Positions 15,642 through 47,307 of a DNA stretch of 48,933 nt are shown here, in pieces; within the stretch, counting starts at the first letter, position 1; each line of letters opens with the position of its first letter. The translations under genes were made by a program, and so were the position numbers. The notes beneath the pieces were generated by a model. It saw only the letters and a list, made by a program, of their open reading frames with translations. It did not search any database and was not told the DNA's origin. The stretch is from Spirochaetaceae bacterium (GTDB taxonomy: Bacteria; Spirochaetota; Spirochaetia; Treponematales; Treponemataceae). The stretch is from the NCBI GenBank assembly GCA_017936665.1, contig JAGBFB010000015.1:1-48933 (forward strand), given 5' to 3'.

Positions 15642-15650
15642 ATATAAAAA

Positions 15651-16138: not shown

Positions 16139-16139
16139 T

Positions 16140-16943
16140 TTATTTTTTCTTCCTTGGGAAAATAGGTTTTTTAGAGAAATTATCATACCAAAAAATTGGT
16201 AAAGTATTATTTGGTGTCTTTTTTAATGAGATCGCACCTTCACATTTTCCATACCCTCGTTGATAATCGTCAGGTACATTAAATCTTTTTTCCATAGAAT
16301 CTAATATTCCTAAATATTTATCTCGTACTGACACTTCCATATTTTCCGAAATACTTTTGTTATATTTATTCAAATAAACAATATTAAAACCACAATTTGT
16401 TAATAAATCATAACCTACACTCATTATTGCAAAACAAATTATATAAACTTGATTAGGTTTTAATTTATATTTCTGCATTTCTTGTTGAACATGAGCTAAA
16501 GCTTGATTTCCTGAACCAATGAAATCATCAATAAAAACAAAAATATCAGTTAGTTTTGCTTTTTCGATTTGAATTTCTAAGTTAATTTTCGTGTTCACAA
16601 AGAATGACTTTTGATAAAACTCCAAAGAATCTAGAAATGAAAATAAAAAATGACCACTTTTTTGCTTATTTGGATTCTCAATATCAATGATAGGTAAAAA
16701 AAATATTCTTTTTATTTTTGAAGAAATACAACTATCTAATTTTTGAAGCAAAGAAAAGAATAAAGAGACATACTGATCGAATTTGATTATCGAATATTGC
16801 TTAAATAATTCATAAAACAAATCTCTTTCATCATCTGTTAGATTATTACTTATTGCGAAAACTTTATCTTCAAGACTCCATCCAATGAATTGCTTATTAG
16901 CGAGTATCGGACTTATTTTTTCTATAAAGGCTTCTTTTGTCAT
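16140..16943 (-). CDS. Retron effector, phosphoribosyltransferase-like
   Basis: 267 aa. A type I PRTase-fold signature is visible: IFVFIDDFIGSGNQALAHV at ~135-153, where DDFIGSGNQ corresponds to the PRPP-binding loop. A strand AIMSVGYDLL and a long C-terminal segment with DYQRGYGKCEGAISL follow. Retrons carrying a PRTase plus a winged-helix protein are a described class (as I recall, type III in the Mestre classification), but the toxic reaction is not established from sequence. The ATG at 16943 overlaps the TGA of a nine-codon reading frame (ATGA) that bridges from hsdS. It is the first gene of the retron unit and is probably co-transcribed with the type I operon. Confidence 0.8.
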   Translation of the reverse strand: MTKEAFIEKISPILANKQFIGWSLEDKVFAISNNLTDDERDLFYELFKQYSIIKFDQYVSLFFSLLQKLDSCISSKIKRIFFLPIIDIENPNKQKSGHFLFSFLDSLEFYQKSFFVNTKINLEIQIEKAKLTDIFVFIDDFIGSGNQALAHVQQEMQKYKLKPNQVYIICFAIMSVGYDLLTNCGFNIVYLNKYNKSISENMEVSVRDKYLGILDSMEKRFNVPDDYQRGYGKCEGAISLKKTPNNTLPIFWYDNFSKKPIFPRKKK

Positions 16944-18268: not shown

Positions 18269-19344
18269 TTCTGCACTCCATCAATAGTGTTGTGAGTTTC
18301 AGCAAAGATTTCTTTTTGGCGTTCAATTTCTTCTTCTAATTCTTTTTCGGTTGGAAGTAAGGTCAAATATTTACTTGCAAAAATCTGTTTTGATTCCTTG
18401 AGTACAGAATATTTTGCCACAGTTTTGTCGGTTTCTGAGCAGAGTAAGATTCCAATTGTAGGATTGTCATCTTCTTTTTTGTAAATATCATCGAACATAC
18501 GGACATAAAAATCCATTTGACCTACATCCCTGTGTGTAAGTGTATTCATTTTTAAATCTACAAGTACAAAGCATTTGAGAATAAAATTATAAAACACAAG
18601 GTCTATATAAAAATCTTCGGTTTCGGTTCGTACAAGTTTCTGGCGTTCTACAAAAGCAAAGCCTTTTCCCATTTCAAGAAGGAACTTTTGAATACTATCT
18701 ATAATTGCTTGTTCAAAATCACTTTCTTCATAGCTTTTATTTTCTGGAAGTCCAAGGAACTCCAATACATACGGATTCTTTACAAACTCTAACTTTTTAT
18801 CTTGAAAAAGTTTTGATTTTTTTTCCATTTCTTTTATTACAGGCTCTTTTACTTGAGAACTTAGCAGGCGTTCATAGTATTTTGTTCCTATATTTCTTTC
18901 TAAAGTTCTTGTATCCCAGTTCTGTGCAGAGCTTTCATTACAATACCAATCACGGGCTTCTTTCTGTGTAACGCGCATAATAAGTTTGTAATGACTCCAA
19001 GTCAAAATTCTCCACACTGCGGAGAATTTCTCTGGTTCAGTAAAACGTTCAAAAAACATACGGAAATTATATAAGCTTTGTGGAGAAAATCCTTTCCCAA
19101 ATTCTTTTGTTAATTCTTCTGAAAGATTTTTAATTATTTCTTTTCCGTATTCAGCTCTGATTTCACCTTTCTGTTCCTGCAAGACAATTCTTTTCCCTAT
19201 AAGCCAATAGGCATAAATCATTGCATAGTTAATATGATTTTTAACATACTGCCTTGACTGCAAAATTATTTCTTTTATATCTGAAACATAATTTTCTGTG
19301 AATATAACATCTGGTTCAAAGTAAGTTTTTAGTTCCTCTTTCAT
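18265..19344 (-). CDS. YhcG-like PDDEXK nuclease-domain protein (DUF1016)
   Basis: 359 aa. The N-terminal DUF1016 helical domain (YWLIGKRIVLQEQKGE, YGKEIIKNLSEELTKEFG, SPQSLYNFRMF) is followed by the C-terminal PD-(D/E)XK domain: DFYIDLVFYN, then CFVLVDLKM (D...D-x-K) and GQMDFYVR. Such proteins are often found inside type I R-M operons. The role is unsettled; a link to the restriction complex or to DNA repair is assumed. It sits between hsdM (3-nt gap) and hsdS (4-bp overlap), so its expression is tied to theirs. Confidence 0.88.
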   Translation of the reverse strand: MKEELKTYFEPDVIFTENYVSDIKEIILQSRQYVKNHINYAMIYAYWLIGKRIVLQEQKGEIRAEYGKEIIKNLSEELTKEFGKGFSPQSLYNFRMFFERFTEPEKFSAVWRILTWSHYKLIMRVTQKEARDWYCNESSAQNWDTRTLERNIGTKYYERLLSSQVKEPVIKEMEKKSKLFQDKKLEFVKNPYVLEFLGLPENKSYEESDFEQAIIDSIQKFLLEMGKGFAFVERQKLVRTETEDFYIDLVFYNFILKCFVLVDLKMNTLTHRDVGQMDFYVRMFDDIYKKEDDNPTIGILLCSETDKTVAKYSVLKESKQIFASKYLTLLPTEKELEEEIERQKEIFAETHNTIDGVQK

Positions 19345-19347
19345 CTT

Positions 19348-21084
19348 TTACTCTCCCATAATCTCAGATAGATTTGCCATTAGATTTTTTTCAAGTTCTT
19401 TAATTTCATCCATAATCTGTGAACTTGGCTTTGGAGCCTGATATTTATAGAAATATCTTGTAAAAGGAATTTCGTAGCCAACTACATTTTTCTTTTCTTC
19501 TATCCAGGCATCTTGGGCAAAAGGAAGAACTTCACGATTAAAATATTCGGTTATATCTTCTTTCAATGGAACATTTTCTGTATCACGCAGACTGGAATCT
19601 GCTTGCTTTTTTCCATTCTTTAAAACTAGATTTCCGTTTTCATCTTTTAATGGACGCTCTACAGTAATTGTTGTATAGCCAAAATCCTTTGTGTCAAAAA
19701 TCTTGCTCAACTCGCTTTCTTGAAATTGGGTGTATAGTTTAACAATCTGTTTGATATTTTCTTTTGAAATATCATTGCGTTTATTTCCAAGAGCTTTTCT
19801 TCTTTTTTCAAAAAGTGTATTTGCATTTATTAGCTGAACTTTATTTTTTCTATTTTCGGCTTTGTGATTATTAAAAATCCAAATGTAGGTTGCAATTCCT
19901 GTGTTGTAAAAAATATCATTTGGAAGAGCTATAATTGCATCAAGCAAATCGTGTTCAAGAATATATTTTCTAATATTGCTTGGACCACTTCCTGCATCTC
20001 CTGTAAATAACGGAGAACCATTATGAATTACAGCTGCTTTTCCATTTTCCTTGTCCATTTTTGCTATAATATTCATCATAAAAAGCATCTGGCTATCGCT
20101 GATTTTTGGAAGGCCTGGTCCAAAACGACCGTTTTCTCCTAAATCTGCTTCTTTTTCTACAGCAGCTTTTTCATTTTTCCATTCACGACCAAAAGGGGGA
20201 TTACTTAAAATATAATCAAAAGTAAGCCCACTAAATTTATCATCACTTAAGGTGTTTCCATTTCTGATATTTTCTGCTTGCTTTCCATCTTTACTTTTAA
20301 TAAGAATATCAGCTTTGCAGATAGCGTAAGTTTCATCGTTGATTTCTTGGCCATAACTTTCAAGGGTTACAGGAAGTTTTCTGCTTTCTATATATTCGCT
20401 TGCAACACTAAGCATTCCTCCTGTTCCACAGGCAGGGTCATAAACAGATTTTGAACATTCTTTTTTATTCTGAATATCTTCATCATCAATAAACAGAAGT
20501 TCTGTCATAAGTTCAATTACTTCTCGTGGAGTGTAATGTTGTCCAGCATCTTCATTGTGAGCCTCAGAAAATCTTCTAATCAATTCTTCAAAGATATATC
20601 CCATTTCAATATTACTGATTTTTTCTGGACTAAAATCTGCCTTTTCACTTACAAATTCTTGAAGAACTATATAAATCAAGTCTTTTTCTTTTAGTCTTTT
20701 CAGTTGATCTTCAAATTTAAATTTTCCAATTATTTCTTCTCGAATATTTTCAGAAAAACCATTAAGGTAATTCTCAAAATTTTTATTTATCTGATTGGGA
20801 TTTTCAACAAGAGTTTTAAGCGTAAAGTTTGAAGTATTATAAAAAGGATAACCTGTTATTTGTTGAAACTGAATGTTCTTTATTGCGTCTGACATCTTTT
20901 CAATTTGTTTTGCTTTTTCCAAAACTTTTTCATGGGTTGATTCAAGGATGCAGTCAAACCGACGGATTACTGTAAGTGGAAGAATTACCAATCCGTATTC
21001 GTGTGGCTTATAAGAACCAGTGAGTTTTTCTGCTATATTCCATAAAAGGTTTGCTTTTTCAGTTACATTTGATGTTAGAGACAT
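19348..21084 (-). CDS. hsdM: Type I restriction-modification methyltransferase subunit
   Basis: 578 aa. The helical N-terminus of HsdM is followed by GQHYTPREVIELM (~185), the SAM-binding YDPACGTGGML (motif I, ~218-228), and the catalytic SNPPFGREW (motif IV NPPF, ~286-294), giving an N6-adenine methyltransferase. A two-HsdM/one-HsdS complex methylates; with HsdR it cuts unmodified DNA. The ATG follows one base after the Fic stop codon, so the two are coupled. Confidence 0.95.
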   Translation of the reverse strand: MSLTSNVTEKANLLWNIAEKLTGSYKPHEYGLVILPLTVIRRFDCILESTHEKVLEKAKQIEKMSDAIKNIQFQQITGYPFYNTSNFTLKTLVENPNQINKNFENYLNGFSENIREEIIGKFKFEDQLKRLKEKDLIYIVLQEFVSEKADFSPEKISNIEMGYIFEELIRRFSEAHNEDAGQHYTPREVIELMTELLFIDDEDIQNKKECSKSVYDPACGTGGMLSVASEYIESRKLPVTLESYGQEINDETYAICKADILIKSKDGKQAENIRNGNTLSDDKFSGLTFDYILSNPPFGREWKNEKAAVEKEADLGENGRFGPGLPKISDSQMLFMMNIIAKMDKENGKAAVIHNGSPLFTGDAGSGPSNIRKYILEHDLLDAIIALPNDIFYNTGIATYIWIFNNHKAENRKNKVQLINANTLFEKRRKALGNKRNDISKENIKQIVKLYTQFQESELSKIFDTKDFGYTTITVERPLKDENGNLVLKNGKKQADSSLRDTENVPLKEDITEYFNREVLPFAQDAWIEEKKNVVGYEIPFTRYFYKYQAPKPSSQIMDEIKELEKNLMANLSEIMGE

Positions 21085-21085
21085 G

Positions 21086-22180
21086 TTATTTCTCCATCTT
21101 ATTCAATTTATATATTCTATTTTTATTTGCGCCACTGGGAAGAATTACATTTTCTTCTACTAATTTAGCAAATATTTTTCTTACTCCCGCAGGAGAAAGA
21201 CCTGTTATATTTTGAGCAATTGAGCTGTTTATGCTGTCGTTGTTTTTTAGATACTCAAGAATAATATCGCTACTTTTCTCTTTTATCGCTACTTTATCGC
21301 CAGTAATTATATCATTTATCGCTACTTTTTGCTCGTATTTCTTCAATATTTCTTCTGAATTTATTACAAGATAGCGGTTTTTTAATTCGTGTTTTTCGTT
21401 CAAAAGTAGATTTTTAAAAAAGTTTTCCAAAAAACTGGTATCCATGTAGATTTGCTTTTGAATATTTGTATAGTTTGCTCGAACAAGTGCGTTTCTAAAA
21501 TACCAAGAATGTTTAGCAAAAATATCATTTGAAACATCATAACCAAGTGAACGCAAATATTTGATTATAAAAACAGCTGTAGTTCTAGTGTTGCCTTCTC
21601 TAAAAGGATGAATTTGCCAGAGGTTTGCTGTAAATCTTGAAAGATGTTTTATAATTTCTTCTTGAGAAAGACCTATGTAATTAAATTTCTTTTCTTGTTC
21701 AAAATCATATTCTATTGTCTTTTGTATCAAATCATAACCAGAATAATAAACAGTATCGCCCTGTAAAACCCATTCTTTTTTTGTAATGTTTACATCACGG
21801 ATTCTTCCTGCAAATTTAAATACGCCAGTAAATAATCGCTTATGGATATTCAAAAATTCAAGTGGAGTAAAAGAAAAGGTATCTTCGCTGAGTAATTCTG
21901 TTATGTGAGAAGAAACTATATCAGCTTCTTCTTTTGCTTCATCATCTTCATCTTTTGAACTCTTTGTTTCATAATATGTTTTTATTAAATTTTGAGCTTC
22001 CTTTATTGAAATTTCACCTTCAATATTTTTTTTTGCTGTTTCAATTAAATAAGCAGATGGTTTTAAGTTATCAACTGCCTGTAATCCAATAGCGGTCTGC
22101 CAAGCATATGTTTTCTTTTTTTTATCTGGTTCACCTTGAACTAAGTATTGTTCAAAGTCTTCAAAATTAAAATCGTCCAT
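21086..22180 (-). CDS. Fic-domain protein with winged-helix C-terminus
   Basis: 364 aa. The active motif HPFREGNTRT (~196-205) fits the Fic consensus HPFxxGNxR and suggests AMP transfer to a hydroxyl group of a target protein. It follows a beta-hairpin flap (~143-165) and the N-terminal helices. The C-terminal ~80 residues form a winged helix (SSIAQNITGLSPAGVRKIF, then LPSGANKNRIYKL), as in many DNA-binding Fic proteins. It is embedded between hsdR and hsdM. Fic in a type I operon is seen in several bacteria, but its target is unknown; it could modify a restriction subunit or regulate the operon. Confidence 0.88.
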   Translation of the reverse strand: MDDFNFEDFEQYLVQGEPDKKKKTYAWQTAIGLQAVDNLKPSAYLIETAKKNIEGEISIKEAQNLIKTYYETKSSKDEDDEAKEEADIVSSHITELLSEDTFSFTPLEFLNIHKRLFTGVFKFAGRIRDVNITKKEWVLQGDTVYYSGYDLIQKTIEYDFEQEKKFNYIGLSQEEIIKHLSRFTANLWQIHPFREGNTRTTAVFIIKYLRSLGYDVSNDIFAKHSWYFRNALVRANYTNIQKQIYMDTSFLENFFKNLLLNEKHELKNRYLVINSEEILKKYEQKVAINDIITGDKVAIKEKSSDIILEYLKNNDSINSSIAQNITGLSPAGVRKIFAKLVEENVILPSGANKNRIYKLNKMEK

Positions 22181-22188
22181 TTTATCCT

Positions 22189-25100
22189 TTATGCAATATT
22201 TAATTTGTGTGTAAGATGCTCATAAATTGGCATTCTCATTTCATCCTTAAAAGAATTCAAAAATTCTTCATTTGTTGTAAGAACATCCCGAACCTTATCT
22301 GTTATTTCCAATGATTCAAGTGTTGTTTTTACAAAAATGTACATGCCATCATTTCCATTATATTTTAGTTCATATTTTGGATACTGTTTTATCAATCCAA
22401 TGTTACAGAAAGACTTATCTGCTGCAAAACTCTTTTTAAATGCACTAAGGGCAGGAACAATATCTTCCTCTGCAAAATCTGTTCCAAAGCGAGAGTTTAT
22501 TCGACTTACCATTTCTTGCACTGTAGTAGGAGCTGGCTTAGGAGGTTCTTTTGCTCCACCATCTGAACCAGGTCGAACTATAGAACCATCACCTTCAACA
22601 AGTTTTATTGCTTCTGTCATTTCAAAATCAATTTTATAATCAGAAAGTTCAATAAGTTTTTTTATGTCAGAAGGTTTTATAACATCGTCCGGCGTTACTG
22701 ATTTTAATCTCAACATTGGATTAACAAGTCTTAAATATAATCCAAGTTTTACAAGTTCTGCGTCTTTTATATTTTCAATATTTTGCAAAAACATAAATAC
22801 TTTTACATATCGAATACATTTATGTTTAAACTCTTTTTTGTCTTCATCTCTTAATTTTTTATAGCGGGCGATAAAATCTGCAACAAGATTCATAGTTTGT
22901 TGAGCAATATTGTCTTTTGGAATATCTGTATTATTCAATTTATTAAGAATTGAAATATATTCTTCTATTTCTGTTTTTTCGATGATAGAATACTTTTCAA
23001 TTTTTTCTCTTAGTTGTTTTAATTCTTCTATTGTATATTCACCTTCTAGTTCTATTTTTCCGTAATAAGTTTGAAAGGCTTCTTTTATTTCTTCTCTGTC
23101 GTTTACAAAATCAAGAATAAAACAATCTCGTTCAGCAAGTTTTGCATTGTTAGACATTGTTCGATTTAAGCGACTTAAGGTCTGCACAGTCTTTATGTTA
23201 TGAAGAGGCTTGTCTATATACATTACGCTTAATAGCTTTTCACTAAAACCTGTCTGATATTTATCTGCAACAACGATAAAACGGTATTTATCTCCCTTAA
23301 AGACTTCTGGAGTTTGGTTTTCTGAAATTGTTTTTCCTTCTTCTTCCATATTATTAATTGGAAAAGAGTTCATTTGGCTTTCTGTTTTGCCATCAATATC
23401 ACCAGAGAATGCAACAAGTACACCCCAGTTTGTGTGTCCTTTTTGTGTAAGTTTATCCCGCAAGGTTCTGGCATAAAGAACAGCTTCTTTTCGTGAAGAA
23501 GTGACAACCATTGCCTTGCCCTTTCCATCAATTGTTTTTGAACCAATCTTTTCAAAGTGTTCTATTATGATATCTGTGATTTTAGCAATACGATGTTCAT
23601 GTTCTGCAACATATTTTGCAGTCATTCCGTAAATTGCTTTTGTGTCATATTGATTATTATCATCTTCATTTTTTATGCGAAGATTATAATATTGTTTATA
23701 AGTTGAATAGTTTACAAGAACATCTAATATATATCCTTCTTCAATTGCCTGTTGCATTGAATAAACATGAAAGGGTCTAAAACCATCTACATCTTTTCCA
23801 GATTTTGAATCTTTTACTTTACAAGGAACACCGAACATTTGAAGTGTTTGTCCAGTTGGCGTTGCAGTAAAAGCAAAAAAACTCATATTTGACTGCTTTC
23901 CTGTAGCAACTTGTCTTAAGATTTTTTCCTGTTCTTCGTCAGATGCATCTCCTTCTTCTGGAGTATCATCTTGATCTTCAGCTTTTATCTGAGATTCTGC
24001 ATCTGCACCAAGCCCAAGTTTTACCTTTCCAGAGGCCGTTCCTGTTTGTGATTGATGAGCTTCATCGGCAATTACTGCAAATCTACGATTTGGATTTTTA
24101 GCTTTTATTTCTTCAAGTTCTTTGTAAATCATAGGGAACTTTTGAATTGTACTTATGATAATTACATTGCCAAGTTTTATATAATCAATAATTTCAGAAG
24201 ATTTTTTTGCAATTTTAACAGTTCCATCTTTTGGGTTAAAAGACATAATAGTATTACGAGTCTGTTTATCAAGAACTCGGCGATCATTCAGAATGATTAT
24301 TGTATCAAATACTTTTTCATTTTTATCTGTAAAATATAGATTATTTAAATGGAATGCCAACCAAGCAATTGTGTTAGATTTACCAGATCCAGCACTATGT
24401 TCTACAAGATAGTTTTTTTGTGAACCATTAGTAGCAACATCATTTAATAGTTTTCGAACAACATCTAACTGATGATATCTAGGGAAAATTAAAGTTTCTT
24501 CTTTTGTTTTTGAATCTACTTCTAAAGTTATAAATGATTGGATTATATCAAGAAGACTTTCTTTTGTAAGAACTTTTTCCCAAATATAGTCTGTTGCAAA
24601 TTTCCCTTGAGATGCTTTTGGATTGCCTTTTCCGCCCTGATTACCAGCACCATTTGAGCCAAGATTAAAAGGTAAAAAATTAGTTCCTAATTTTGCGAGT
24701 TTTGTTGTCATAGAGGCATTTGTTGTGTCTACAGCAAAATGAACAAGAGGTCCTGTTTTAAATTTAAAAAGAGGTTCTGCAATACTTCTAAGTTTGTACT
24801 GAGTCTGTGCTTCAATGTAATCTTGCCCCTGTAATTCAAATTTTAATTCTGCAGTAATTACTGGAATACCATTTATAAACAGTACAATATCTGGAATTGG
24901 AGTATGAACAGACTTTCCTGCATCCCCGATTAATTGATTTACAACTGTAAAAATATTTTTTTTATAAAGATTAATTGTTTCTGGATTTAAGGTATTTTCG
25001 GGTTTCCAGTATACTGTGTCAAATTGAATGGAGCGAAACACAAAACCTTTTCTAAATAAGTCTAATGTACCTTGATTTTTTCTTGAAGTTAGAAGTTCTT

Positions 25101-25323
25101 CAATAAGTTTTTCTTCAGCTTCTTTTTCAGAATCAAATTTGTCACAAAGGCAGGTCCAATTATCAGGTTGTGTTTCTTTTATAAAAGAAATGAAAGTTTG
25201 TGGAAGAAGAGCTTTTTGAGGATTATATTCATTGTTGTTACCTTGAATATATCCACTTTTTGAAATGAGTAAATTAACAATGTATTTTTCAAAATCCTTT
25301 TCAGAATAATCTATATCTGACAT
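22189..25323 (-). CDS. hsdR: Type I restriction endonuclease/translocase subunit
   Basis: 1044 aa from the ATG at 25323, which has AAAGGAAG upstream; a further in-frame ATG at 25347 lacks one. The N-terminal PD-(D/E)XK nuclease has PDIVLFINGIPVITAELKF (~150-170 with D and ExK). The SF2 motor follows: HSAGSGKSNTIAWL (Walker A, ~307), VIADEAHQSQTG (DEAH-type, ~416), FFAFTATPTGQTL (motif III), and VADKYQTGFSEKLL and TLSRLNRT (motifs V-VI, ~690-730). It translocates and cuts unmethylated DNA. It is the first gene of the unit hsdR-fic-hsdM-yhcG-hsdS-retron. All parts look intact. Confidence 0.95.
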   Translation of the reverse strand: MSDIDYSEKDFEKYIVNLLISKSGYIQGNNNEYNPQKALLPQTFISFIKETQPDNWTCLCDKFDSEKEAEEKLIEELLTSRKNQGTLDLFRKGFVFRSIQFDTVYWKPENTLNPETINLYKKNIFTVVNQLIGDAGKSVHTPIPDIVLFINGIPVITAELKFELQGQDYIEAQTQYKLRSIAEPLFKFKTGPLVHFAVDTTNASMTTKLAKLGTNFLPFNLGSNGAGNQGGKGNPKASQGKFATDYIWEKVLTKESLLDIIQSFITLEVDSKTKEETLIFPRYHQLDVVRKLLNDVATNGSQKNYLVEHSAGSGKSNTIAWLAFHLNNLYFTDKNEKVFDTIIILNDRRVLDKQTRNTIMSFNPKDGTVKIAKKSSEIIDYIKLGNVIIISTIQKFPMIYKELEEIKAKNPNRRFAVIADEAHQSQTGTASGKVKLGLGADAESQIKAEDQDDTPEEGDASDEEQEKILRQVATGKQSNMSFFAFTATPTGQTLQMFGVPCKVKDSKSGKDVDGFRPFHVYSMQQAIEEGYILDVLVNYSTYKQYYNLRIKNEDDNNQYDTKAIYGMTAKYVAEHEHRIAKITDIIIEHFEKIGSKTIDGKGKAMVVTSSRKEAVLYARTLRDKLTQKGHTNWGVLVAFSGDIDGKTESQMNSFPINNMEEEGKTISENQTPEVFKGDKYRFIVVADKYQTGFSEKLLSVMYIDKPLHNIKTVQTLSRLNRTMSNNAKLAERDCFILDFVNDREEIKEAFQTYYGKIELEGEYTIEELKQLREKIEKYSIIEKTEIEEYISILNKLNNTDIPKDNIAQQTMNLVADFIARYKKLRDEDKKEFKHKCIRYVKVFMFLQNIENIKDAELVKLGLYLRLVNPMLRLKSVTPDDVIKPSDIKKLIELSDYKIDFEMTEAIKLVEGDGSIVRPGSDGGAKEPPKPAPTTVQEMVSRINSRFGTDFAEEDIVPALSAFKKSFAADKSFCNIGLIKQYPKYELKYNGNDGMYIFVKTTLESLEITDKVRDVLTTNEEFLNSFKDEMRMPIYEHLTHKLNIA

Positions 25324-25638
25324 ATTATTTCTTCCTTTCCCATCCATTCTACCACAAATTCCCCAAATTTTCCATATACACCCTCATTGGTTTTTGCAAT
25401 CGTTTCTAAAGCTGATTCTTTTTTGATGTGATTAACATAATGGGAAAAACTTATCAGTTTTATGACCTGAATAAATCATACAAATTCGCTGATTCCCTGT
25501 CTAAAACTGTGGAAGCAAATTTTTTCTAGATCTGGATAGACAATTGATTTAAAATCGCGTCTCATATAGACAGCCCATACATCAGTATCCTTAGATAAAT
25601 TTGAAATATCATTCGATGTACTGAACAAAATGAACACG
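25324..25638. other. Gap upstream of hsdR with coding-like remnants
   Basis: About 315 bp that must include the hsdR promoter. Two stretches on the minus strand read like coding sequence without starts, for example DTDVWAVYMRRDFKSIVY followed by DLEKICFHSFRQG, ending near 25490. They look like the tail of a lost gene. No terminator or repeat stands out. Confidence 0.35.
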
Positions 25639-28126: not shown

Positions 28127-28171
28127 TTAAACCACAAGTTTAATGATTATTTATCAATACTGTATTATCTT
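28127..28171 (+). promoter_or_regulatory. Box promoter of the DIP1984 gene
   Basis: TTAAACCACAA-GTTTAATGATT at 28127-28148, with a -10 TATCTT at 28166-28171 (17 nt) or TATTAT at 28163-28168. The leader of ~22 nt carries GGAGG. Confidence 0.6.
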
Positions 28172-28199
28172 AGAAACATAAACGAATGGAGGAAAGAAA

Positions 28200-28778
28200 A
28201 TGACTTTACAAAAAGCAATGCGTATTAGAGCTGAACTCAAAAAAGAAATCAGTAATTTGAATGAACTAATCCACGATTATCCTCATCAAATTTCATTTGA
28301 AAATAGGATTCCAGAACCAGAAGAGCTTCGTGCAAAAAGAGAAGAAAAATCTCTTAGCCTTGATGGAATGAATTATGAAGATGTAATTAAACGTATGTTT
28401 ACAATTACAGATATCATTTTAGAATTAAATATCGCAATTGAAAAAGCAAACCGCGAAGGTCACAATCTTTTATTTAAAGAAGCTTCTATAAAATCAAAGA
28501 TTTCTTTGCTTGATTATCAGATAAATTCTGAAAGAGTTATTAAGCCTGAAGTTGAAAGACTTGATTATGACTATGATCACATGGATGAAAAAGGAAATTT
28601 TAAGCGAGTAAAAGTTACAACTTATAATTATGCTATGCTAACAGATGAAACTTTTGGAATATCATTGATTGAATACAAGAAGAAATTAAATAAAGAATTG
28701 GAAGAAGTTCGTGATGAACTATCTGCTTTTAATGCAAGTCGTAAAATTGACTATGAATTGCCAGAAGGTATTTTATAG
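28200..28778 (+). CDS. DIP1984-family protein
   Basis: 192 aa, two long helical halves. It starts LQKAMRIRAELKKEISNL and has a central DIILELNIAIEKAN and a conserved-looking KASIKSKISLLDYQ type segment (here EASIKSKISLLDYQINSE). This matches the DIP1984 (formerly septicolysin) family, small bacterial proteins of unclear function. GGAGG lies seven bases before the ATG. It is preceded by a box promoter and so belongs to the same regulon as the metallophosphoesterases. A structured non-coding stretch follows. Confidence 0.75.
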   Translation: MTLQKAMRIRAELKKEISNLNELIHDYPHQISFENRIPEPEELRAKREEKSLSLDGMNYEDVIKRMFTITDIILELNIAIEKANREGHNLLFKEASIKSKISLLDYQINSERVIKPEVERLDYDYDHMDEKGNFKRVKVTTYNYAMLTDETFGISLIEYKKKLNKELEEVRDELSAFNASRKIDYELPEGIL

Positions 28779-28786
28779 TACAGATT

Positions 28787-29166
28787 TGCAGTAAATTTAG
28801 TTTTTGCGGAGAAAACTACACTTGGTTTTAAAAGAATATTTCAGATAAACTGATTTATGCTTTTGAAATCAAGTTCCATCTGGTATCCGCTTTTGGGAAT
28901 TGTACCCAAGGAGAATAACAGCTGGTTTCAGGTATATTACCTGAACAGAGGCAACGAAAATTCGCCTTTAAAAATATAAAACTATAATTTTTTATGAACC
29001 GGATTTTCCGTATTGTTTGTTTTATCTTTTTAATTTATGTGGCTGTTTAAAAATTGAAGAATAATTCAAAGTTGTAAAAATTCAACACTTATTCATATAT
29101 CAGATGGAAACTGCAAATTTGGGCGTCGGTTGAAGTTCTTTTGGACGGATTCCGACGCTTTTTTTT
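28787..29166 (+). ncRNA. Structured non-coding stretch ending in a terminator
   Basis: No gene in about 380 bp, but several hairpins: TTGGG-aattgta-CCCAA (about 28894-28910), TTCAGGTA-tat-TACCTGAA (28927-28945), and a final GCGTCGG (29123-29129) with CCGACGC (29152-29158) plus T8, a strong terminator. A degraded box (GTTTAAAAATT at ~29047) lies upstream of the last part. GCTAGGAAG after the T tract is also seen after the terminator of the 36471 RNA. It may be one RNA or a 3' UTR plus a short leader RNA. Function unknown. Confidence 0.45.
29123..29166 (+). terminator. Rho-independent terminator
   Basis: A perfect 7-bp GC-rich stem GCGTCGG/CCGACGC, loop of 22 nt, then T8. Confidence 0.85.
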
Positions 29167-29466: not shown

Positions 29467-29519
29467 CGTAACCTTCCTTTTTTATTGCGTTGGAACTCTG
29501 CAACTTAAGGAGTATCAAC

Positions 29520-29774
29520 GTGAAAACAACATATCAAAAACCTGTTTTGGATTTAACAGCAACAGGAGCAAAAATCAAATCAATCATGAAACTACGAGGC
29601 GTTTCACCTCGTCAGGTACAAATCATTCTCAATTTTCCTTTTGTTCAAACTATTTATAATTGGTTTTCTGGAAAAAATATGCCATCCATTGATAACCTAA
29701 TAGTTCTTTCTGAAATTCTTGAAGTTTCCATCAATGATTTACTTGTAACAAACACTGTAGAAATTGAAATTTAA
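29520..29774 (+). CDS. Small XRE-family HTH regulator (paralogue of 550-819)
   Basis: 84 aa from a GTG at 29520 with AAGGAG seven bases upstream. HTH pattern: DLTATGAKIKSIMKLRG, VSPRQVQIILNF, VQTIYNWFSGKNMPSIDNL. It shares the ATG..IK, VQTIY.W..GK..PS..NL..LS framework with the XRE protein at 550-819, so the plasmid carries two copies of this type. It lies just before the tRNA gene. Targets unknown. Confidence 0.75.
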   Translation: MKTTYQKPVLDLTATGAKIKSIMKLRGVSPRQVQIILNFPFVQTIYNWFSGKNMPSIDNLIVLSEILEVSINDLLVTNTVEIEI

Positions 29775-29810: not shown

Positions 29811-29883
29811 GTGGACGTTGGCGGAGAGGTAACGCGCTTGGCTGTGGACCAAGATTTCACCAGTTCGATTCTGGTACGCCCAC
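29811..29883 (+). tRNA. tRNA-His (GTG anticodon)
   Basis: A full cloverleaf can be drawn. The acceptor has 8 positions including the extra G(-1) opposite C73, as tRNA-His requires. The D-arm contains GGCGGAGAGGTAAC. The anticodon stem CTTGG/CCAAG holds the loop CTGTGGA (anticodon GTG). The T-arm is ACCAG-TTCGATT-CTGGT. CCA is not encoded. One acceptor pair is A-C (position 4/69), where a chromosomal copy would be expected to have G-C or A-U. Finding a tRNA gene on a plasmid is unusual. It could supply histidine decoding or have served as an integration site. Confidence 0.85.
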
Positions 29884-29924
29884 CTTTTAAAAATGTAATA
29901 CAACAAAATTACAGGAGGAATACT

Positions 29925-32476: not shown

Positions 32477-32521
32477 TTAAACCACCAGTTTAATGACATA
32501 CAAATCTTTAGTAATTACAAT
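32477..32521 (+). promoter_or_regulatory. Box promoter of metallophosphoesterase 1
   Basis: TTAAACCACCA-GTTTAATGACA at 32477-32498, 17-nt spacer, -10 TACAAT at 32516-32521. The ATG follows after exactly 6 nt, so the transcript should begin at the start codon. Confidence 0.75.
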
Positions 32522-32527
32522 TTTATT

Positions 32528-33169
32528 ATGGAAAAATATTTTGATTCATTAAATCAAATTGATATTACACAAGGATTCTCTCCAGAAAAAATTTATATCA
32601 CAAGCGATTTACACCTTTTTCACAAGAACATTATTAAATATGTAAATCGTCCTTTCGATTTTTCCCCGGAAGGTTGCAGCAAAATGAATGAGTTTTTGCT
32701 TAAAAAGTTTGATGAGCTTCCAGAAGATTGTGTAATTTGGAATCTTGGCGATGTGATTTTGAATCGAAATATTTTGCAAGAAAGAACTTCCGCTGTAATT
32801 TGGCGAATGAAACAAAATCGGAAAATCAACTTGATTTTGGGAAATCACGACAAGCAATGCAAAAAGGAAAAAGACGAAACTTATATTGAATATTTTACAA
32901 AATCAGGTTTTGATATGGTTTTTAATAAACCAATTATTTTTAACAACAAATATATTTTTTCTCACGAACCAGTTTTTATTCCAGAAAACAGGGATTTTAT
33001 CAATCTTCACGGACACACTCATAATCGATTTGTAACAGAAGATTTTTTCTTAAGTGAATACAACAAAACTTTTCCCAAAAAGAAAGTAAATCCAAAAAAA
33101 TACATAAATGTCTGTATGGACGCACATAATTTTGAGATTCTAAAACTAAGTGAACTGATTGAGTTTTAA
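32528..33169 (+). CDS. Calcineurin-like metallophosphoesterase 1
   Basis: 213 aa with all five motifs: IYITSDLHLFHKNI (D-x-H, ~22), WNLGDVI (GD, ~75), LGNHDKQ (GNHD, ~103), IFSHEPV (H, ~147), and NLHGHTHNR (GHxH, ~163). It should be a two-metal phosphodiesterase or phosphatase. No ribosome site exists upstream; with the -10 six bases before ATG the mRNA is predicted to be leaderless. Two other such enzymes on this plasmid share the same promoter layout. Its stop is 13 bp from that of the convergent PHP gene. Confidence 0.88.
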   Translation: MEKYFDSLNQIDITQGFSPEKIYITSDLHLFHKNIIKYVNRPFDFSPEGCSKMNEFLLKKFDELPEDCVIWNLGDVILNRNILQERTSAVIWRMKQNRKINLILGNHDKQCKKEKDETYIEYFTKSGFDMVFNKPIIFNNKYIFSHEPVFIPENRDFINLHGHTHNRFVTEDFFLSEYNKTFPKKKVNPKKYINVCMDAHNFEILKLSELIEF

Positions 33170-33917: not shown

Positions 33918-33932
33918 TTTGCGCCTCTTTTG

Positions 33933-33951
33933 TTTATTATACCACAGAAAA
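33933..33951 (-). promoter_or_regulatory. Extended -10 promoter of the PHP gene
   Basis: Minus strand TTTTCTGTGGTATAATAAA, identical to 28087-28105; the TATAAT lies about 18 nt before the ATG. Confidence 0.55.
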
Positions 33952-33963
33952 GAAGGATGAGCA

Positions 33964-34008
33964 TTAAACTATTGGTTTAATGAACTTTCCCCAAAATTCA
34001 ATTATAAT
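33964..34008 (+). promoter_or_regulatory. Box promoter of metallophosphoesterase 2
   Basis: TTAAACTATTG-GTTTAATGAAC at 33964-33985, 17-nt spacer, perfect TATAAT at 34003-34008, then 6 nt to the ATG at 34015. Confidence 0.78.
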
Positions 34009-34014
34009 AACCCT

Positions 34015-34863
34015 ATGGGAAAAACTTCAGTTTATTTTACAAGCGATTTACATTTGGATCATTATTGCGACTCTTCTTCTGAACTTACAGCCTTTGTAGA
34101 AAAATTTTTGCCAAAAGCAGAAGTTTTGTGCGTGGCTGGAGATACATCTGACAATCCAAAATTGTTTGTTGATTTTTATCGTCTTGTTTCAAAACGCTAT
34201 AATCAGATTTTTCTTATTTTTGGGAACCACGATTTAACAGTTCAGCACCATGATTATTTTTTGCAAAATCCTTTTACAAAAACGCAAGACAAACTAAACT
34301 GGCTAAAGGAAAAACTTTCAGAACTTCCAAATGTTACCTTGTTAGACGGAACTGTGGCCACATACAAAAATATTAAAATTGGTGGCACAATGGGATTCAA
34401 CGATTTTTCTGTGGGCTCAAATATTTATCCAAAAACAAAATCGGAGCTTAAAAAAGAATGGCTTTGTTGGTTTGATAATGTGAATTGGCACTACAAAAAC
34501 AACGACCCAGACATTATTTTAAAACAAGAACTTTTAAAACTTGAGTCTGTAATTCGCCAAAATCCTGACATTGTGATGACTCATTTTTTGCCAACGGCGG
34601 TGGGAATTCCAGAAAAATATCAAGCAGAAATTACAAACGCTTTTTTTTATTTTGATGCAAACAGATTTTTAAACAAAATGAAAAACAACTCAATTTGGCA
34701 GGCAGGTCATGCCCACGATTTTAGCAAAAAAATCTACTCTAGAAAAACTGGAATCTTCAAAAAGAAAGTAAACCTGCTTGTAAATCCTGTTGGATATCCC
34801 TTTGAAACAAAAAACAAATTCAGCCTAAAATCTCGCTGTCAGTATTTTTTGCTTTGGATATAA
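34015..34863 (+). CDS. Calcineurin-like metallophosphoesterase 2
   Basis: 282 aa. Motifs: VYFTSDLHLDHY (~6-17), VAGDTSDN (~43), IFGNHDL (~71), VMTHFLPT (~186), QAGHAHDF (~232). A two-metal phosphoesterase of the same superfamily as the enzymes at 32528 and 46492, but not a close copy of either. It is predicted leaderless: no Shine-Dalgarno, -10 six bases before the ATG. A non-coding RNA promoter follows 90 bp downstream. Confidence 0.88.
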   Translation: MGKTSVYFTSDLHLDHYCDSSSELTAFVEKFLPKAEVLCVAGDTSDNPKLFVDFYRLVSKRYNQIFLIFGNHDLTVQHHDYFLQNPFTKTQDKLNWLKEKLSELPNVTLLDGTVATYKNIKIGGTMGFNDFSVGSNIYPKTKSELKKEWLCWFDNVNWHYKNNDPDIILKQELLKLESVIRQNPDIVMTHFLPTAVGIPEKYQAEITNAFFYFDANRFLNKMKNNSIWQAGHAHDFSKKIYSRKTGIFKKKVNLLVNPVGYPFETKNKFSLKSRCQYFLLWI

Positions 34864-34952: not shown

Positions 34953-34997
34953 TTAAACCATCAGTTTAATGACAAAGACTCAACTTCGGCATAAAAT
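34953..34997 (+). promoter_or_regulatory. Box promoter of structured RNA B
   Basis: TTAAACCATCA-GTTTAATGACA at 34953-34974, 17-nt spacer, TAAAAT at 34992-34997. The expected RNA start is near 35004. The 90 bp before it, after the metallophosphoesterase stop, show nothing else. Confidence 0.75.
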
Positions 34998-35003
34998 AAA
35001 AAT

Positions 35004-35260
35004 AAGATAAGGTTCGAAGAAAGACACAGTGGTTATGTTGGCTAATTGGTTGCCAGGATAATCCCGTCTGAGGACCTTTTTGGGCAGCACCCACTTGTTG
35101 GCGGAAGTAAGAGCCTTCAAGTGCGTATCCACAAAGGCGTTGACCGTTTTTATGGAATCTGTCTTTCCCCAAGCAGCGTTTGCTAGTGAAGTCTGGCAAC
35201 TTGAGTTTTCACGTCGGCGGGATTGGTTTGCTGTTGAAAACTCAAGGCTTGGGGATTTTT
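35004..35260 (+). ncRNA. Structured RNA B (homologous to RNA C at 37791-38034)
   Basis: About 257 nt from an inferred start to a T6 tract, 16 bp before the ATG of the next gene. Core: P1 GGCAG (35083-35087) with CTGTC (35159-35163); hairpin CACTTG/CAAGTG; P2 CCCCAAGC (35167-35174) with GCTTGGGG (35247-35254), then ATTTTTT. Inside P2 is a 12-bp stem (35200-35211 with 35235-35246) capped by CGGCG-GGATTGGTT-TGCTG. RNA C shares AGCACCCACTTG, ATGGMATCTRTC, GAAGTYYGG and the GGATTGGTT loop, with compensatory changes in P1 and P2. A 5' part (35004-35082) has no match in C. It may be a trans-acting RNA or an attenuator leader for the 35277 gene. Confidence 0.75.
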
Positions 35261-35276
35261 TCTACTAGGATTTTAT

Positions 35277-36362: not shown

Positions 36363-36470
36363 AAAAATAATTTTAAAAAAAAGCTCTAAGCCTGATATGC
36401 AGATAGATAAAACAACAAAATTAAACTATCACTTTATTGTTTATTTTCTTTGTATGATTATAATTTAATT
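36363..36470 (+). promoter_or_regulatory. Box-like promoter of structured RNA D1
   Basis: TTAAACTATCA-CTTTATTGTTT at 36421-36442 is a diverged box; TATAAT at 36459-36464 is 16 nt further. The inferred start is near 36471. The same TTAAACTATCACTT half is seen in the AAA+ operon promoter at 46433-46454. Confidence 0.55.
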
Positions 36471-36597
36471 ATCCAATTGACCGATTCAACTGTAGTATGT
36501 TTTCAGTATGATATGGTTGGATTTTTGCTTCCGACGTAAGTATTTTTACTCGAAGACAATTTTTTGTTCTTCAGGCTGAAATCGGAAGCTTTTTTTC
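36471..36597 (+). ncRNA. Structured RNA D1
   Basis: Starts with P1 ATCCAA (36471-36476) pairing with TTGGAT (36517-36522), followed by TTTTT. P2 GCTTCCGA (about 36527-36534) pairs with TCGGAAGC, then T7. Inside P2 lie two small hairpins. The plan (P1 at +1, U-rich linker, long P2, U tract) matches RNAs B, C and D2 but the sequence does not, apart from CTAGGAAG just after the T tract, also found at 29168. Only a 23-codon frame follows. Confidence 0.55.
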
Positions 36598-36609
36598 TAG
36601 GAAGCGGAG

Positions 36610-36681
36610 ATGATTTTTCATCAAAGAGTTCCACAATGGGGAGGACTTGTGCTGCCCAACTTTTTTAAACCACAAGTTTAA
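36610..36681 (+). CDS. Possible 23-aa peptide after RNA D1
   Basis: ATG at 36610 with AGGAAGCGGAG just upstream; begins MIFHQRVPQWGGLVLPNF and stops at 36679-36681 inside the next box promoter. It could be a leader peptide, the remains of a lost gene, or chance. Confidence 0.25.
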   Translation: MIFHQRVPQWGGLVLPNFFKPQV

Positions 36682-36709
36682 TGACAAATTAAAAATGGAA
36701 TTATAAAAT
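36665..36709 (+). promoter_or_regulatory. Box promoter of structured RNA D2
   Basis: TTAAACCACAA-GTTTAATGACA at 36665-36686, 17-nt spacer, TAAAAT at 36704-36709; RNA start near 36716. The box is identical to those at 28127 and 38064 through TTAAACCACAAGTTTAATGA. Confidence 0.75.
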
Positions 36710-36715
36710 GTAAAG

Positions 36716-36856
36716 TGTTGGGCGTAGAGATTGCACTTGTTGTGTCCTGCCCGATTTTTTGAGGCTTGTTTCGGGTGAGGATTTGGGCGCTTTTGGGGAA
36801 AGGGGTATCCTAGATACTGAATTGATGCTATCGTTTTCTCAGAAACAAGCCTTTTT
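36716..36856 (+). ncRNA. Structured RNA D2
   Basis: P1 begins almost at +1: TTGGGC (about 36718-36723) with GCCCGA, then TTTTTT. P2 is a perfect 11-bp stem AGGCTTGTTTC (36762-36772) with GAAACAAGCCT (36842-36852) and T5. The ~70-nt P2 interior is G-rich and not obviously paired. The next gene's ATG is 24 nt past the T tract with GAGGG upstream. Same overall plan as RNAs B, C and D1; no clear primary-sequence match. Confidence 0.6.
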
Positions 36857-37790: not shown

Positions 37791-38034
37791 AAAAAAAGCA
37801 CTTGCCAAAGTGGTTACGCTCTATATGCGAGTTAGCACTTTTCCAAATGCCAACCTTGTGCCTCTGTTTTTCAACAGCGAACCAATCCCGCTGAGGTGAA
37901 AAAACAAAGTTGCCCGAACTTCATCGAACAAACACTGCACAAGGTAAAATCGATAGATGCCATATCTACGGTAATCGCTCAATATGACTACACACCTGAG
38001 TTTCTCGGATTATACGCTCAAGTGGGTGCTATCT
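37791..38034 (-). ncRNA. Structured RNA C (homologous to RNA B)
   Basis: About 244 nt on the minus strand. It begins at P1: GATAG (38033-38029) with CTATC (37956-37952). Hairpin CACTTGAG/CTCAGGTG follows. P2 is CCTTGTGC (37944-37937) with GCACAAGG (37861-37854), enclosing a 12/13-bp stem and a hairpin CAGCG-GGATTGGTT-CGCTG (37893-37875). A separate terminator follows, GCATTTG (37850-37844) with CAAGTGC (37804-37798) and T7. Compared with RNA B, P2 changes four base pairs and all stay paired; P1 changes C-G to U-A. Shared unpaired blocks include AGCACCCACTTG and GGATTGGTT. Unknown family. Confidence 0.78.
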
Positions 38035-38040
38035 TTTTTT

Positions 38041-38085
38041 AGTATACTTTTGATTTTCTGGGCTGTCATTAAACTTGTGGTTTAA
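38041..38085 (-). promoter_or_regulatory. Box promoter of structured RNA C
   Basis: Minus strand TTAAACCACAA-GTTTAATGACA (38085-38064), 17-nt spacer, TATACT (38046-38041). The predicted +1 (about 38034) falls exactly at the 5' strand of helix P1. Confidence 0.78.
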
Positions 38086-38213: not shown

Positions 38214-38777
38214 GTCACACTTCTCTTAAAAAAATCGATTTGAGGACAAAAAAAAAGTAACAGTTCTCTTAAATCGAAAAAAGCAGAGAGTAATGGAAAG
38301 AAAGTAACTTTTATTACAAGGTAACAATTCTCTTAAACATAATATTATCTGAAAGGAAGGTAACAGTTCTACTAAAATTCGACACAAAATAATTTTCTTT
38401 TTATACGATTAATATTTTTTATGAATATTGGTCAACAAAACTTTTCAAAATGATATAAAGTAACAGTTCTCTTAAATTAAAAGTAACATTTCTCCTAAAG
38501 TTATTAACAAAATTCCTGTGGAAAACTCAAGTTTTCCGTAACAGTTCTCTTAAAAATCACAAATTATATATTTCTTTATATTGCAAAGAATTAACTTTTT
38601 TATACAAAAACATCATAACAATTCTCTTAAAAAAGAGTCACAATTTTCTTAAATCTTCTATATATACTAATAATAACTATTAATATATTTAAAAACTAAT
38701 AATAGTATCCAAAAATTGTGGAAAACTATAAATAATTTAGTAAAACTGTTACCTATATTCTTTAAGAGAATTGTTAC
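38214..38777. repeat. Iteron array, probable replication origin
   Basis: Copies of GTAACAGTTCTCTTAAA or close variants start at 38214, 38257, 38321, 38360, 38460, 38483, 38538, 38615 and 38637 (plus sense), and an inverted copy lies at 38761-38777, touching the rep stop codon; a half copy is at 38743. Spacing varies from 22 to ~100 bp, with AT-rich stretches between, including a nearly pure AT block at 38660-38740. This is the usual form of an iteron-controlled plasmid origin. Further single copies lie at 39783-39799 and 42541-42557. Confidence 0.88.
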
Positions 38778-41328: not shown

Positions 41329-41372
41329 TTAAACCAAATGTTTAATGAAAATTTTGAATTTTGCATTATAAT
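41329..41372 (+). promoter_or_regulatory. Box promoter of the double-XRE gene
   Basis: TTAAACCAAAT-GTTTAATGAAA at 41329-41350, 16-nt spacer, TATAAT at 41367-41372, then 6 nt to the ATG at 41379. Confidence 0.75.
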
Positions 41373-41378
41373 GAAATC

Positions 41379-42512
41379 ATGAAACATTTTTATTTTGCTC
41401 CAAGGGTAAACCTAAAAAAATCTATGGAAAATATCCTTTTACTTTTTAAGGAAAAAAAATTTTCTCGTGAGGAAGTAGAATCAATTTTGTTTAATCCCTA
41501 TGGACTAAAAGAAACTGGGAATAATATTTCAAACGATAAATTTTTATTAGATAAGAATTTTTTAAATAGAGATACAAAGTTTAGTGAAAGAACATATTAT
41601 GACTGGAAAAATGGAGAGCACTTTCCACAACTTGATATAATTTTTTTGATGGCACAAATTTTGCAAAAACCTGTAGAATCTATTTTTATTTACGACTATA
41701 TTTTTGTTGAATCTTTACCATTGAAAAAATCAAAAGATAAAAATGAAAAAGGCACAATGGTGCATTCTGTAAAAAAATCAATTTATTTTGAAGAAGAAAA
41801 TCTTTCAATCGAAGAATTACAATCAAAATATCCAAATGAATTTGAAGACCTTATTAGTATAAATTCAGATTATTTTAATTACGATGAATTTGAAAAGCCA
41901 ATTTATTATTGTGCAAATAATCCAAAGGATGTTTTTGTTTGTCCTAGTACAGATCCTGAAGAAATAAAAGAAAGTGTTTCTCAAATAATTGAAAAAATTA
42001 AAATCAAACCAAAAATTTTGACAACTATTTTAAATGAAAAAAATGTTCAAACTGTATCAAATTGGAAACGAAAAGAGCGCAAACCCAAAACAGAAACTCT
42101 TTTAAATTTTGCAAGATTTTTAAACTTTGATTTTGTTCAATTTTGTAGAGTTTCATTTTGTGCTACAAAAAAAGTTCCTTTTGACGGAAGACAATTTGAA
42201 CTTTTGTACGAAAAAATACATAACAAAAATTGTTTTGCAAAAGAATACGAAGCATACAAAATTGAAATGGTAAAACAAATTAAGAAATATAAAAATTTTC
42301 TTGAAAAAATGTATGCAGCGGATAGGGCAGAGTGGGATAAAAAATCTTTAGAAGAATTGATAAATGAAGATTTACTACAAATTACAAATAATGATTATTT
42401 AGAATTTGAATTGGAACCTCATTTTTTGTGTTACATGAAAGAACGAATGGAAAAAGAAAATTTTCATGATGATTTTATTTTTAACTATATAAAAGATTGT
42501 TCAGAATATTAG
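41379..42512 (+). CDS. Protein with two XRE-like HTH domains
   Basis: 377 aa from the ATG at 41379; a TTG six codons earlier lies upstream of the predicted transcript start. The first HTH is near residues 60-105 (RTYYDWKNGEHFPQLDIIFL), the second near 205-255 (LNEKNVQTVSNWKRKERKPK, then TETLLNFARFLNF). An acidic linker joins them and the last ~110 residues are helical. Two DNA-binding domains in one chain could hold a two-site or inverted-repeat operator. It sits under a box promoter itself and its mRNA is predicted to be leaderless, so it is a reasonable, untested candidate for the regulator of the box regulon. An alternative is control of replication or partition next door. Confidence 0.7.
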   Translation: MKHFYFAPRVNLKKSMENILLLFKEKKFSREEVESILFNPYGLKETGNNISNDKFLLDKNFLNRDTKFSERTYYDWKNGEHFPQLDIIFLMAQILQKPVESIFIYDYIFVESLPLKKSKDKNEKGTMVHSVKKSIYFEEENLSIEELQSKYPNEFEDLISINSDYFNYDEFEKPIYYCANNPKDVFVCPSTDPEEIKESVSQIIEKIKIKPKILTTILNEKNVQTVSNWKRKERKPKTETLLNFARFLNFDFVQFCRVSFCATKKVPFDGRQFELLYEKIHNKNCFAKEYEAYKIEMVKQIKKYKNFLEKMYAADRAEWDKKSLEELINEDLLQITNNDYLEFELEPHFLCYMKERMEKENFHDDFIFNYIKDCSEY

Positions 42513-46491: not shown

Positions 46492-47256
46492 TTACTCTAA
46501 AACAATTCCTGCGTAGTACAAGGGAATAAACTTACTAGTTTTTCTGTTGTCATAGCCCCAACTTGTGTGCCAGTGCCCGAAAAACCATTTTTTGTAGGTC
46601 ATTATTTCGTTGATTTTGTCGTTAAAGCGAACAGCTTTGTCTTTTCTGTAAAGTTCACGATATTTTGGGTCATCACAACTTGATTCAACCAAAGAAATTC
46701 CTTCGATTGGTCCAGTGTGGGAAAGAATATAATCAACTTGCGTACCATGTTCTTCGATTCGCTTTAGGCAAGAAATTTCTTCTTCGTCAGACATAAGTTC
46801 TTGTTCCCAATAACTTACATTGAGTTTTCGGAATTCCTTGTCTTGACTTTCTGCACCTCCTAAAACAAGAAAGGATTTTCCTTCAATGTTATAGAAGTGA
46901 CCTCGTTTAAGGAAAAAAATATTTTTGCTTACTTTAAGAGTTCTGTTACCAAACATTTCAACTTCTGGAAGTTTTTCTATCATGTTGTAGTTCTCGTGAT
47001 TTCCCATTACAGCAAGAATTGTAAAAGGTTTTTGATTTAGCCAATTTAAAAGATATTTATCTTGTTTATCAGTTGGATGAATACCTTCTTCGTCAACTGC
47101 ACAATCGCACCAAGGAAGACCAAAATCCCCTAAGATAATGAGATTTGTAATTTTTTCGTGACTGCTTTGTTGCCAATAACAATAATTTCTAAGCTTCTTT
47201 ATGGAAAGGCTTTTCATATCAATTGTATTGTGCAAATCTCCAGTAATGTAAATCAT
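46492..47256 (-). CDS. Calcineurin-like metallophosphoesterase 3
   Basis: 254 aa. Motifs: IYITGDLHNTID (D-x-H, ~2-13), LIILGDFGLPW (GD, ~39-49), VMGNHENY (GNHE, ~83-90), ILSHTGP (H, ~178), FFGHWHTSWG (GHWH, ~229-238). A typical two-metal phosphoesterase. No ribosome site lies upstream, and the -10 is six bases before the ATG, so the mRNA is predicted to be leaderless, like the enzymes at 32528 and 34015. The three are only distantly similar, so they are not recent duplicates. It is divergent from the methyltransferase gene. Confidence 0.88.
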   Translation of the reverse strand: MIYITGDLHNTIDMKSLSIKKLRNYCYWQQSSHEKITNLIILGDFGLPWCDCAVDEEGIHPTDKQDKYLLNWLNQKPFTILAVMGNHENYNMIEKLPEVEMFGNRTLKVSKNIFFLKRGHFYNIEGKSFLVLGGAESQDKEFRKLNVSYWEQELMSDEEEISCLKRIEEHGTQVDYILSHTGPIEGISLVESSCDDPKYRELYRKDKAVRFNDKINEIMTYKKWFFGHWHTSWGYDNRKTSKFIPLYYAGIVLE

Positions 47257-47262
47257 GATTTT

Positions 47263-47307
47263 ATTTTAAGCGATAATTTAATAACTTGCATTAAACTTAC
47301 GGTTTAA
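47263..47307 (-). promoter_or_regulatory. Box promoter of metallophosphoesterase 3
   Basis: Minus strand TTAAACCGTAA-GTTTAATGCAA (47307-47286), 17-nt spacer, TAAAAT (47268-47263), 6 nt to the ATG. GATAGGGTAGGGG follows at 47312-47324, a motif also seen beside iterons. Confidence 0.75.

Follow-up and report, generated by a model that had tools for sequence, protein, structure and literature searches.

We firmly place the predicted RNAs D1 and D2, on comparative evidence, in a family of small RNAs that spans Treponema, is built of modules with covarying stems, and is linked to a promoter set of mobile elements. The following can be read off the sequences directly: the promoter pattern, the modules with their covarying stems, how widely they occur, and the fact that two modules, M1 and M2, are reverse complements of stretches of mobile-element genes.

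The window, i.e., the whole stretch of 48,933 bases that was analyzed, is a contig of a 2.58-Mb draft genome (23S was not found in the assembly). The contig contains iterons as well as a RepA_C gene and ParA, and is thus in all likelihood a plasmid. Irregularly spaced repeats (GTAACAGTTCTCTTAAA, 38221-38777) adjoin RepA_C and are the likely replication iterons. The contig also contains a reverse transcriptase, an HTH gene and a PRTase that match type III-A retron models (14601-16943, minus strand; PADLOC E 8e-129, 1e-56), type I restriction-modification genes with interspersed Fic and YhcG-type nuclease genes (16970-25347, minus strand), and a tRNA-His gene (29812-29884) next to an XRE gene. 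A search of plasmid and phage records for DNA like that of the window returned nothing useful.

Anatomy of D1, D2 and their neighbors

According to the original prediction, D1 and D2 begin at +1 with a helix P1, followed by a U-rich linker (T5 and T6, respectively), a helix P2 of 8 and 11 bp, and a U tract; all of these elements were found in place (Table 1). The accompanying claim that the two RNAs have no similarity to RNAs B and C has to be amended, as P2 of D1 resembles P2 of RNA B (31 nt, 74% identical, P about 0.001 compared to shuffles). RNA B (28960-29165) has a relative in another genome (G145, locus L093, G145:C46), with 94% identity over 68 nt and 85% over 71 nt. A CTAGGA sequence had also been described as shared after the terminators. 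Four of the five copies do follow such hairpins, where they amount to a Shine-Dalgarno-like TAGGA; however, the sequence is not over-represented (5 versus 5.0 expected on the plus strand), and we rejected it as a special motif. The short ORF behind D1 may not be a gene. What had been overlooked is the palindromic operator-promoter, the conservation of the loops, and the homolog E on the other strand.

Table 1. Predicted features around D1 and D2 and further putative operator-promoters in the window
Feature	Position	Strand	Description
Operator-promoter	28127-28178	+	Ahead of 192-aa gene (28200-28778)
XRE-type regulator	29490-29774	+	55% identical to XRE gene in the G228 array (another genus)
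Operator-promoter	32477-32528	+	Ahead of metallophosphoesterase gene
Divergent operator-promoter	33929-34015		Between PHP-domain gene (-) and metallophosphoesterase gene (+)
Operator-promoter of RNA C	34953-34997	+	Palindrome pattern
RNA C	35004-35266	+	Weak M12-like element, M1 (from 35082), M2 (to 35257), U tract; homolog of E
Gene after C, 361 aa	35277-36362	+	Matches in 13 related genomes; no Pfam family matched
D1 promoter	36421-36470	+	Degenerate palindrome TTAAACTATCACTTTATTGTTT (36421-36442), -10 TATAAT (36459-36464)
D1 P1 (module M3)	36471-36522	+	Stem ATCCAA/TTGGAT (36471-36476/36517-36522), conserved loop GACC-N5-AACTGTAGTATGTTTTCAGTATG; then T5, as read from the sequence
D1 P2, terminator-like	36527-36596	+	8-bp helix GCTTCCGA/TCGGAAGC (36527-36534/36582-36589), U tract 36590-36596, then CTAGGA 36597-36602; 3' half like P2 of RNA B (29135-29165)
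23-codon ORF after D1	36610-36681	+	23 aa from ATG 36610 (MIFHQRVPQWGGLVLPNFFKPQV); end within D2 operator
D2 operator-promoter	36665-36709	+	TTAAACCACAAGTTTAATGACA; -35 ATGACA (36681-36686), 17-nt spacer, -10 TAAAAT (36704-36709)
D2 P1 (module M4)	36717-36754	+	Stem TTGGGC/GCCCGA (36718-36723/36749-36754), conserved loop AGAGATTGCACTTGTTGTGTCCTG (36726-36749); then T6
D2 P2, terminator-like	36762-36856	+	11-bp helix (36762-36772/36842-36852), U tract
Gene after D2, 131 aa	36881-37276	+	ATG 36881; C-terminal YspA/SLOG-like PF10686 match, slightly below curated cut-off
RNA E	37791-38034	-	M1, M2, M5 (TAACTCGCATATAGAGCGTAACC), terminator-like end; homolog of C
Operator-promoter of RNA E	38041-38085	-	Palindrome pattern
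Operator-promoter	41329-41379	+	Ahead of HTH_3 gene (41361-42512)
Operator-promoter	47256-47307	-	Ahead of metallophosphoesterase gene

Conserved loops, variable stems and their spread

The folding energies of D1 (z = -2.2) and D2 (z = -1.5) are only moderately unusual, compared to that of C (z = -4.3); it is the conservation of the loops that takes D1 and D2 far beyond chance. The P1 loops of D1 (AACTGTNGTATGTTTTCAGTATG) and D2 (AGAGATNGCNCNNGTTGTRTCCTG) are found again, almost identical, in other Treponema genomes, where they are enclosed by differing stems that show compensatory changes. There are 15 occurrences of the D1 loop in 10 of the 274 family genomes, with 0 matches for the control; among 84,980 species it was found in Treponema only, and its carriers among named genomes are Treponema or unclassified Spirochaetaceae. 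The D2 loop is present without mismatch at 14 additional sites. Elsewhere, one M3 loop is enclosed by GCCCAA/TTGGGC, GTCCTA/TAGGGC, GTCCGC/GCGGAC and other stems, and M4 stems include TTGTGC/GCACAA and TTTTGAAC/GTTCAAAA. M5, which is part of E, likewise recurs with differing stems and retains its internal CGC/GCG pair and loops.

We compared the numbers of double-change cells in the stems to those in shuffles: 7 versus 3.0 for the D1 type (1/500), 5 versus 1.4 for the D2 type (2/500), and 22 versus 7.4 for the related module M5 (0/500). Because the rows are few and related, these counts should be read as support and not as probabilities. Between C and E, 10 base pairs are compensated. Compensatory changes in helices, indicative of structured non-coding RNA, are thus present in M5, in the D1 and D2 types, and in C/E.

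A covariance model built from C and E (R1) has about 98 matches in 41 genomes, many of them clustered, and the matches divide into two modules, M1 and M2, found singly or jointly. At least six modules (M1-M6) belong to the set and are found reshuffled between RNAs, C and E of the window among them; for example, one RNA of genome G056 contains M1, M3, M5, M4 and other hairpins in tandem. At locus L086 (about 2020-1480, minus strand), a single predicted RNA of ~480 nt, preceded by one operator-promoter, has many tandem hairpin modules. Rfam 15 recognized only one tRNA over the whole window at the gathering cut-off, and only chance-level matches in the D1/D2 region at a permissive E-value. A 17-mer of C that matches viral contigs was taken as chance.

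Two known kinds of hairpin have to be considered here. The first is the integron attC site: P1 of D1 has the form RYYYAAY...GTTRRRY, ATCCAAT...GTTGGAT and GCCCAAT...GTTGGGC resemble R''/R' boxes, and imperfect hairpins lie among arrays of many small genes. However, attC sites have conserved boxes (RYYYAAC...GTTRRRY) and a variable centre, whereas the putative boxes vary here (GTCCGC/GCGGAC, AACTCT/AGAGTT) and the loop is fixed; P1 of D2 is oppositely oriented, and the sites follow promoters instead of lying at cassette ends. We rejected attC on this stem/loop pattern and position, as a very improbable identification.

The second is the palindromic element of Rickettsia, a hairpin found both between genes and in frame within genes. 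Mobile repeats of this kind could have spread through intergenic and coding DNA and been reused as terminators or leaders, with no function in trans. The modules do share this distribution, since M3 lies in frame within an AraC-type gene and M1 within several genes and after a tRNA gene. However, repeats of the Rickettsia type are copied whole, stems included, whereas here the stems are unrelated, differ with compensation and surround kept loops, the reverse of copy-and-paste, and a dedicated promoter precedes most copies. The search for AraC homologs without the hairpin yielded no close one, hence no empty site. We consider such repeats an improbable explanation. In the AraC-type regulator (locus L078, 1090-2094), the D1-type hairpin is located in the linker, on the opposite strand.

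The shared operator-promoter and the organization of the units

The promoter type of C, D2 and E has the palindrome TTAAA[C/G]N5[G/C]TTTAATGACA 17 nt upstream of the -10 box. In all three, TTAAAC-N5-GTTTAA is followed by TGACA, with exact 17-nt spacing to the -10 (C, 34953; D2, 36665; E, 38085, minus strand); D1 has a degenerate operator copy (36421). We take these sites for a promoter of the sigma-70 type under operator control. Copies of the short palindrome cluster on the window contig (6 sites in 49 kb versus 2 in the remaining 2.5 Mb), and in a family-wide scan the full operator-promoter was found in 80 of 274 genomes, compared to ~4 matches for the reversed control. In relatives, the inner pair is often exchanged (TTAAAG...CTTTAA), and many sites are divergent, flanked by a -10 in each direction. 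Because the palindrome has a -10 box at a distance of 17 +/- 1 nt on at least one side, a recombination site was set aside as its explanation. The operator-promoter heads small genes as well as RNAs. It should be noted that arrays L050-L054 also contain PIN, HEPN, BrnT, Schlafen/AlbA, metallophosphoesterase and PHP genes, some of which share this promoter type.

Two functional ideas had been put forward for D1 and D2, attenuator leaders and independent small RNAs that acquired adjacent genes. If they were attenuators, P1 and P2 would toggle between terminator and antiterminator and thereby control the gene behind. Genes do come after C, D2 and E, which end just ahead of a start codon (for E, that of a short gene at 37779-37582, with a second one at 37578-37192), and in D1 the 3' strand of P1 may pair alternatively with the 5' strand of P2 (-8.4 kcal/mol); on these grounds, readthrough control may operate in the window. 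However, the alternative pairing is weak in D2 (-6.1 kcal/mol), the downstream genes differ, and in several relatives a U tract directly follows the D1-type P1, so that P1 is not an anti-terminator there. Furthermore, among the 35 RNA units of all arrays with a placeable terminator, 30 lack any ORF within 45 nt of the terminator and 5 have one that close; E is outside this sample because the terminator-placing rule placed none for it. In relatives, the P1 modules of D1 and D2 occur in stand-alone units consisting of operator-promoter, RNA, U tract and next promoter. With 30 of 35 units having no close gene, most units look like independent small RNAs. This second idea is the better fit and is well supported outside the window, whereas inside it genes additionally follow C, D2 and E; an attenuator class as such is unlikely.

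Having many units of one element under a common promoter-operator is a feature of establishment-type regulons, and the best published parallel is the establishment regulon of the pLS20-family conjugative plasmids, which have EGeRS2/Reg operators and EGeRS1 structured leaders (PMC8708921). Many short operons per plasmid have a common promoter in that family, with an operator on one or both sides, and EGeRS1 consists of structured repeated sequences directly before ribosome sites that showed no promoter (PMC8708921). The common operator-promoter of many units on one plasmid is a shared trait; unlike in the pLS20 family, it also makes stand-alone RNAs of interchangeable hairpins here, and the candidate regulator is of the XRE type instead of RHH, in a system known from sequence alone. 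We infer that the XRE protein of the window is a candidate operator-binding protein; repression by this protein and induction on entry are proposed by analogy only. Plasmid leading-region anti-defence islands likewise bring together small, variable genes in mobile DNA, and use ssDNA promoters (PMC11541004); in contrast, the sites described here resemble operator-bearing promoters of the sigma-70 type in double-stranded DNA, and RNAs are prominent among the units.

Antisense resemblance and the proposed role

M1 is the reverse complement, in frame, of coding sequence adjoining PBECR1 domains (Pfam 5e-7), and M2 is that of a coding stretch within a MuF_C/LPD3 protein (6e-18, 7e-11). In type I toxin-antitoxin systems, a structured antisense RNA is complementary to the toxin mRNA. 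M1 is similarly structured and complementary to a toxin-type mRNA (PBECR1); however, it is encoded apart from its target gene and in series with other modules. PBECR1 nuclease domains and MuF_C/LPD3 proteins are typical of mobile elements (for the protein class, see PMC5512222). The array RNAs, read in translation, look like differing M1 coding variants. Together with the antisense match of M1 and M2 to genes of mobile elements, this suggests that the array RNAs may be aimed at rival elements.

Other results bear on this suggestion. The coding copies of M1 seem to keep the hairpin pairing, which the antisense model does not require and which counts against it, and a codon-phase test of M1 showed a third-position excess in coding and RNA copies alike. 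The search for a coding target of the D1 loop yielded only the AraC-type gene, which seems to carry the hairpin itself. In five relatives, MCP genes contain sequence that resembles the D2 loop in antisense; chemotaxis receptors were rejected as its likely target, because the MCPs of this genome match no better than shuffles and most of the matches come from a single orthologous group. For M5, no reading frame was consistent in antisense. Loop-to-loop pairing, the few tRNAs at hand, and the D2 loop elsewhere in the window gave nothing above chance, the M3, M2a and M2b matches of the pairing scan being the window's own unmasked copies. Peptides antisense to M3 and M12 had no phage matches, and those of M3 no plasmid match either.

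Alternatively, the RNAs could bind proteins. Nucleases, anticodon nucleases or defence effectors would recognize or cleave the fixed loops and be titrated by the RNAs as decoys, and the antisense likeness of M1 and M2 would reflect origin instead of pairing. A fixed loop on a free stem is typical of RNA recognized by a protein or ligand, and M5 keeps its internal pair and loops in the absence of a reading frame. Some array RNAs (L054, about 4550-4640; L051, after 1668; L060, after 2560) end, as seen by eye, in a tRNA-like element with a T-arm (GCGGGTTCGACTCCCGC), for which ARAGORN makes no call. Against decoys, there is no known partner, and M1 occurs in long copies that resemble variants of coding sequence. 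We regard them as rather unlikely.

Our preferred explanation is that of modular Treponema small RNAs in an operator-promoter set that forms a plasmid-entry or conflict regulon, with the RNAs acting in trans; as a whole, it has somewhat less than an even chance. In it, hairpin modules are strung together into each RNA, every module combining a constant loop with a stem that is free to change, and a hairpin followed by a U tract forms the end. A sigma-70-type promoter with a palindromic operator would make C, E, D2 and, in degenerate form, D1, and would also drive many small genes on the plasmid or mobile island. The plasmid-borne XRE repressor would silence the set in residence, and expression would burst upon entry into a new cell. 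The loops would then base-pair in trans, M1 with mRNAs of PBECR1-type nucleases, M2 with MuF_C/LPD3-type mRNAs, and those of D1 and D2 with further partners; in cases where the RNA has a gene behind it, that gene may also be expressed by readthrough. The inter-element role in trans is the reading that we favor, at similarly less than even odds. A more specific version, in which mobile elements carry libraries of caged antisense hairpins, with loops matching conserved stretches of rival genes, recombined as modules into long multi-target RNAs and fired jointly from a single set of operator-controlled promoters on host entry, is speculative and should be considered doubtful.

This widespread and previously undescribed set of structured RNAs is absent from Rfam, combines fixed loops with swappable stems, and is linked to a mobile-element promoter present in 80 of 274 Treponema-family genomes. 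It makes the behavior of gut-spirochaete plasmids and islands at entry concretely accessible to study. Should the loops prove to act in trans on rival elements, the mobile and recombinable weaponry against such elements would extend from proteins to RNA modules; should they not, modules with a fixed loop and a free stem still provide a ready test set for finding their readers.
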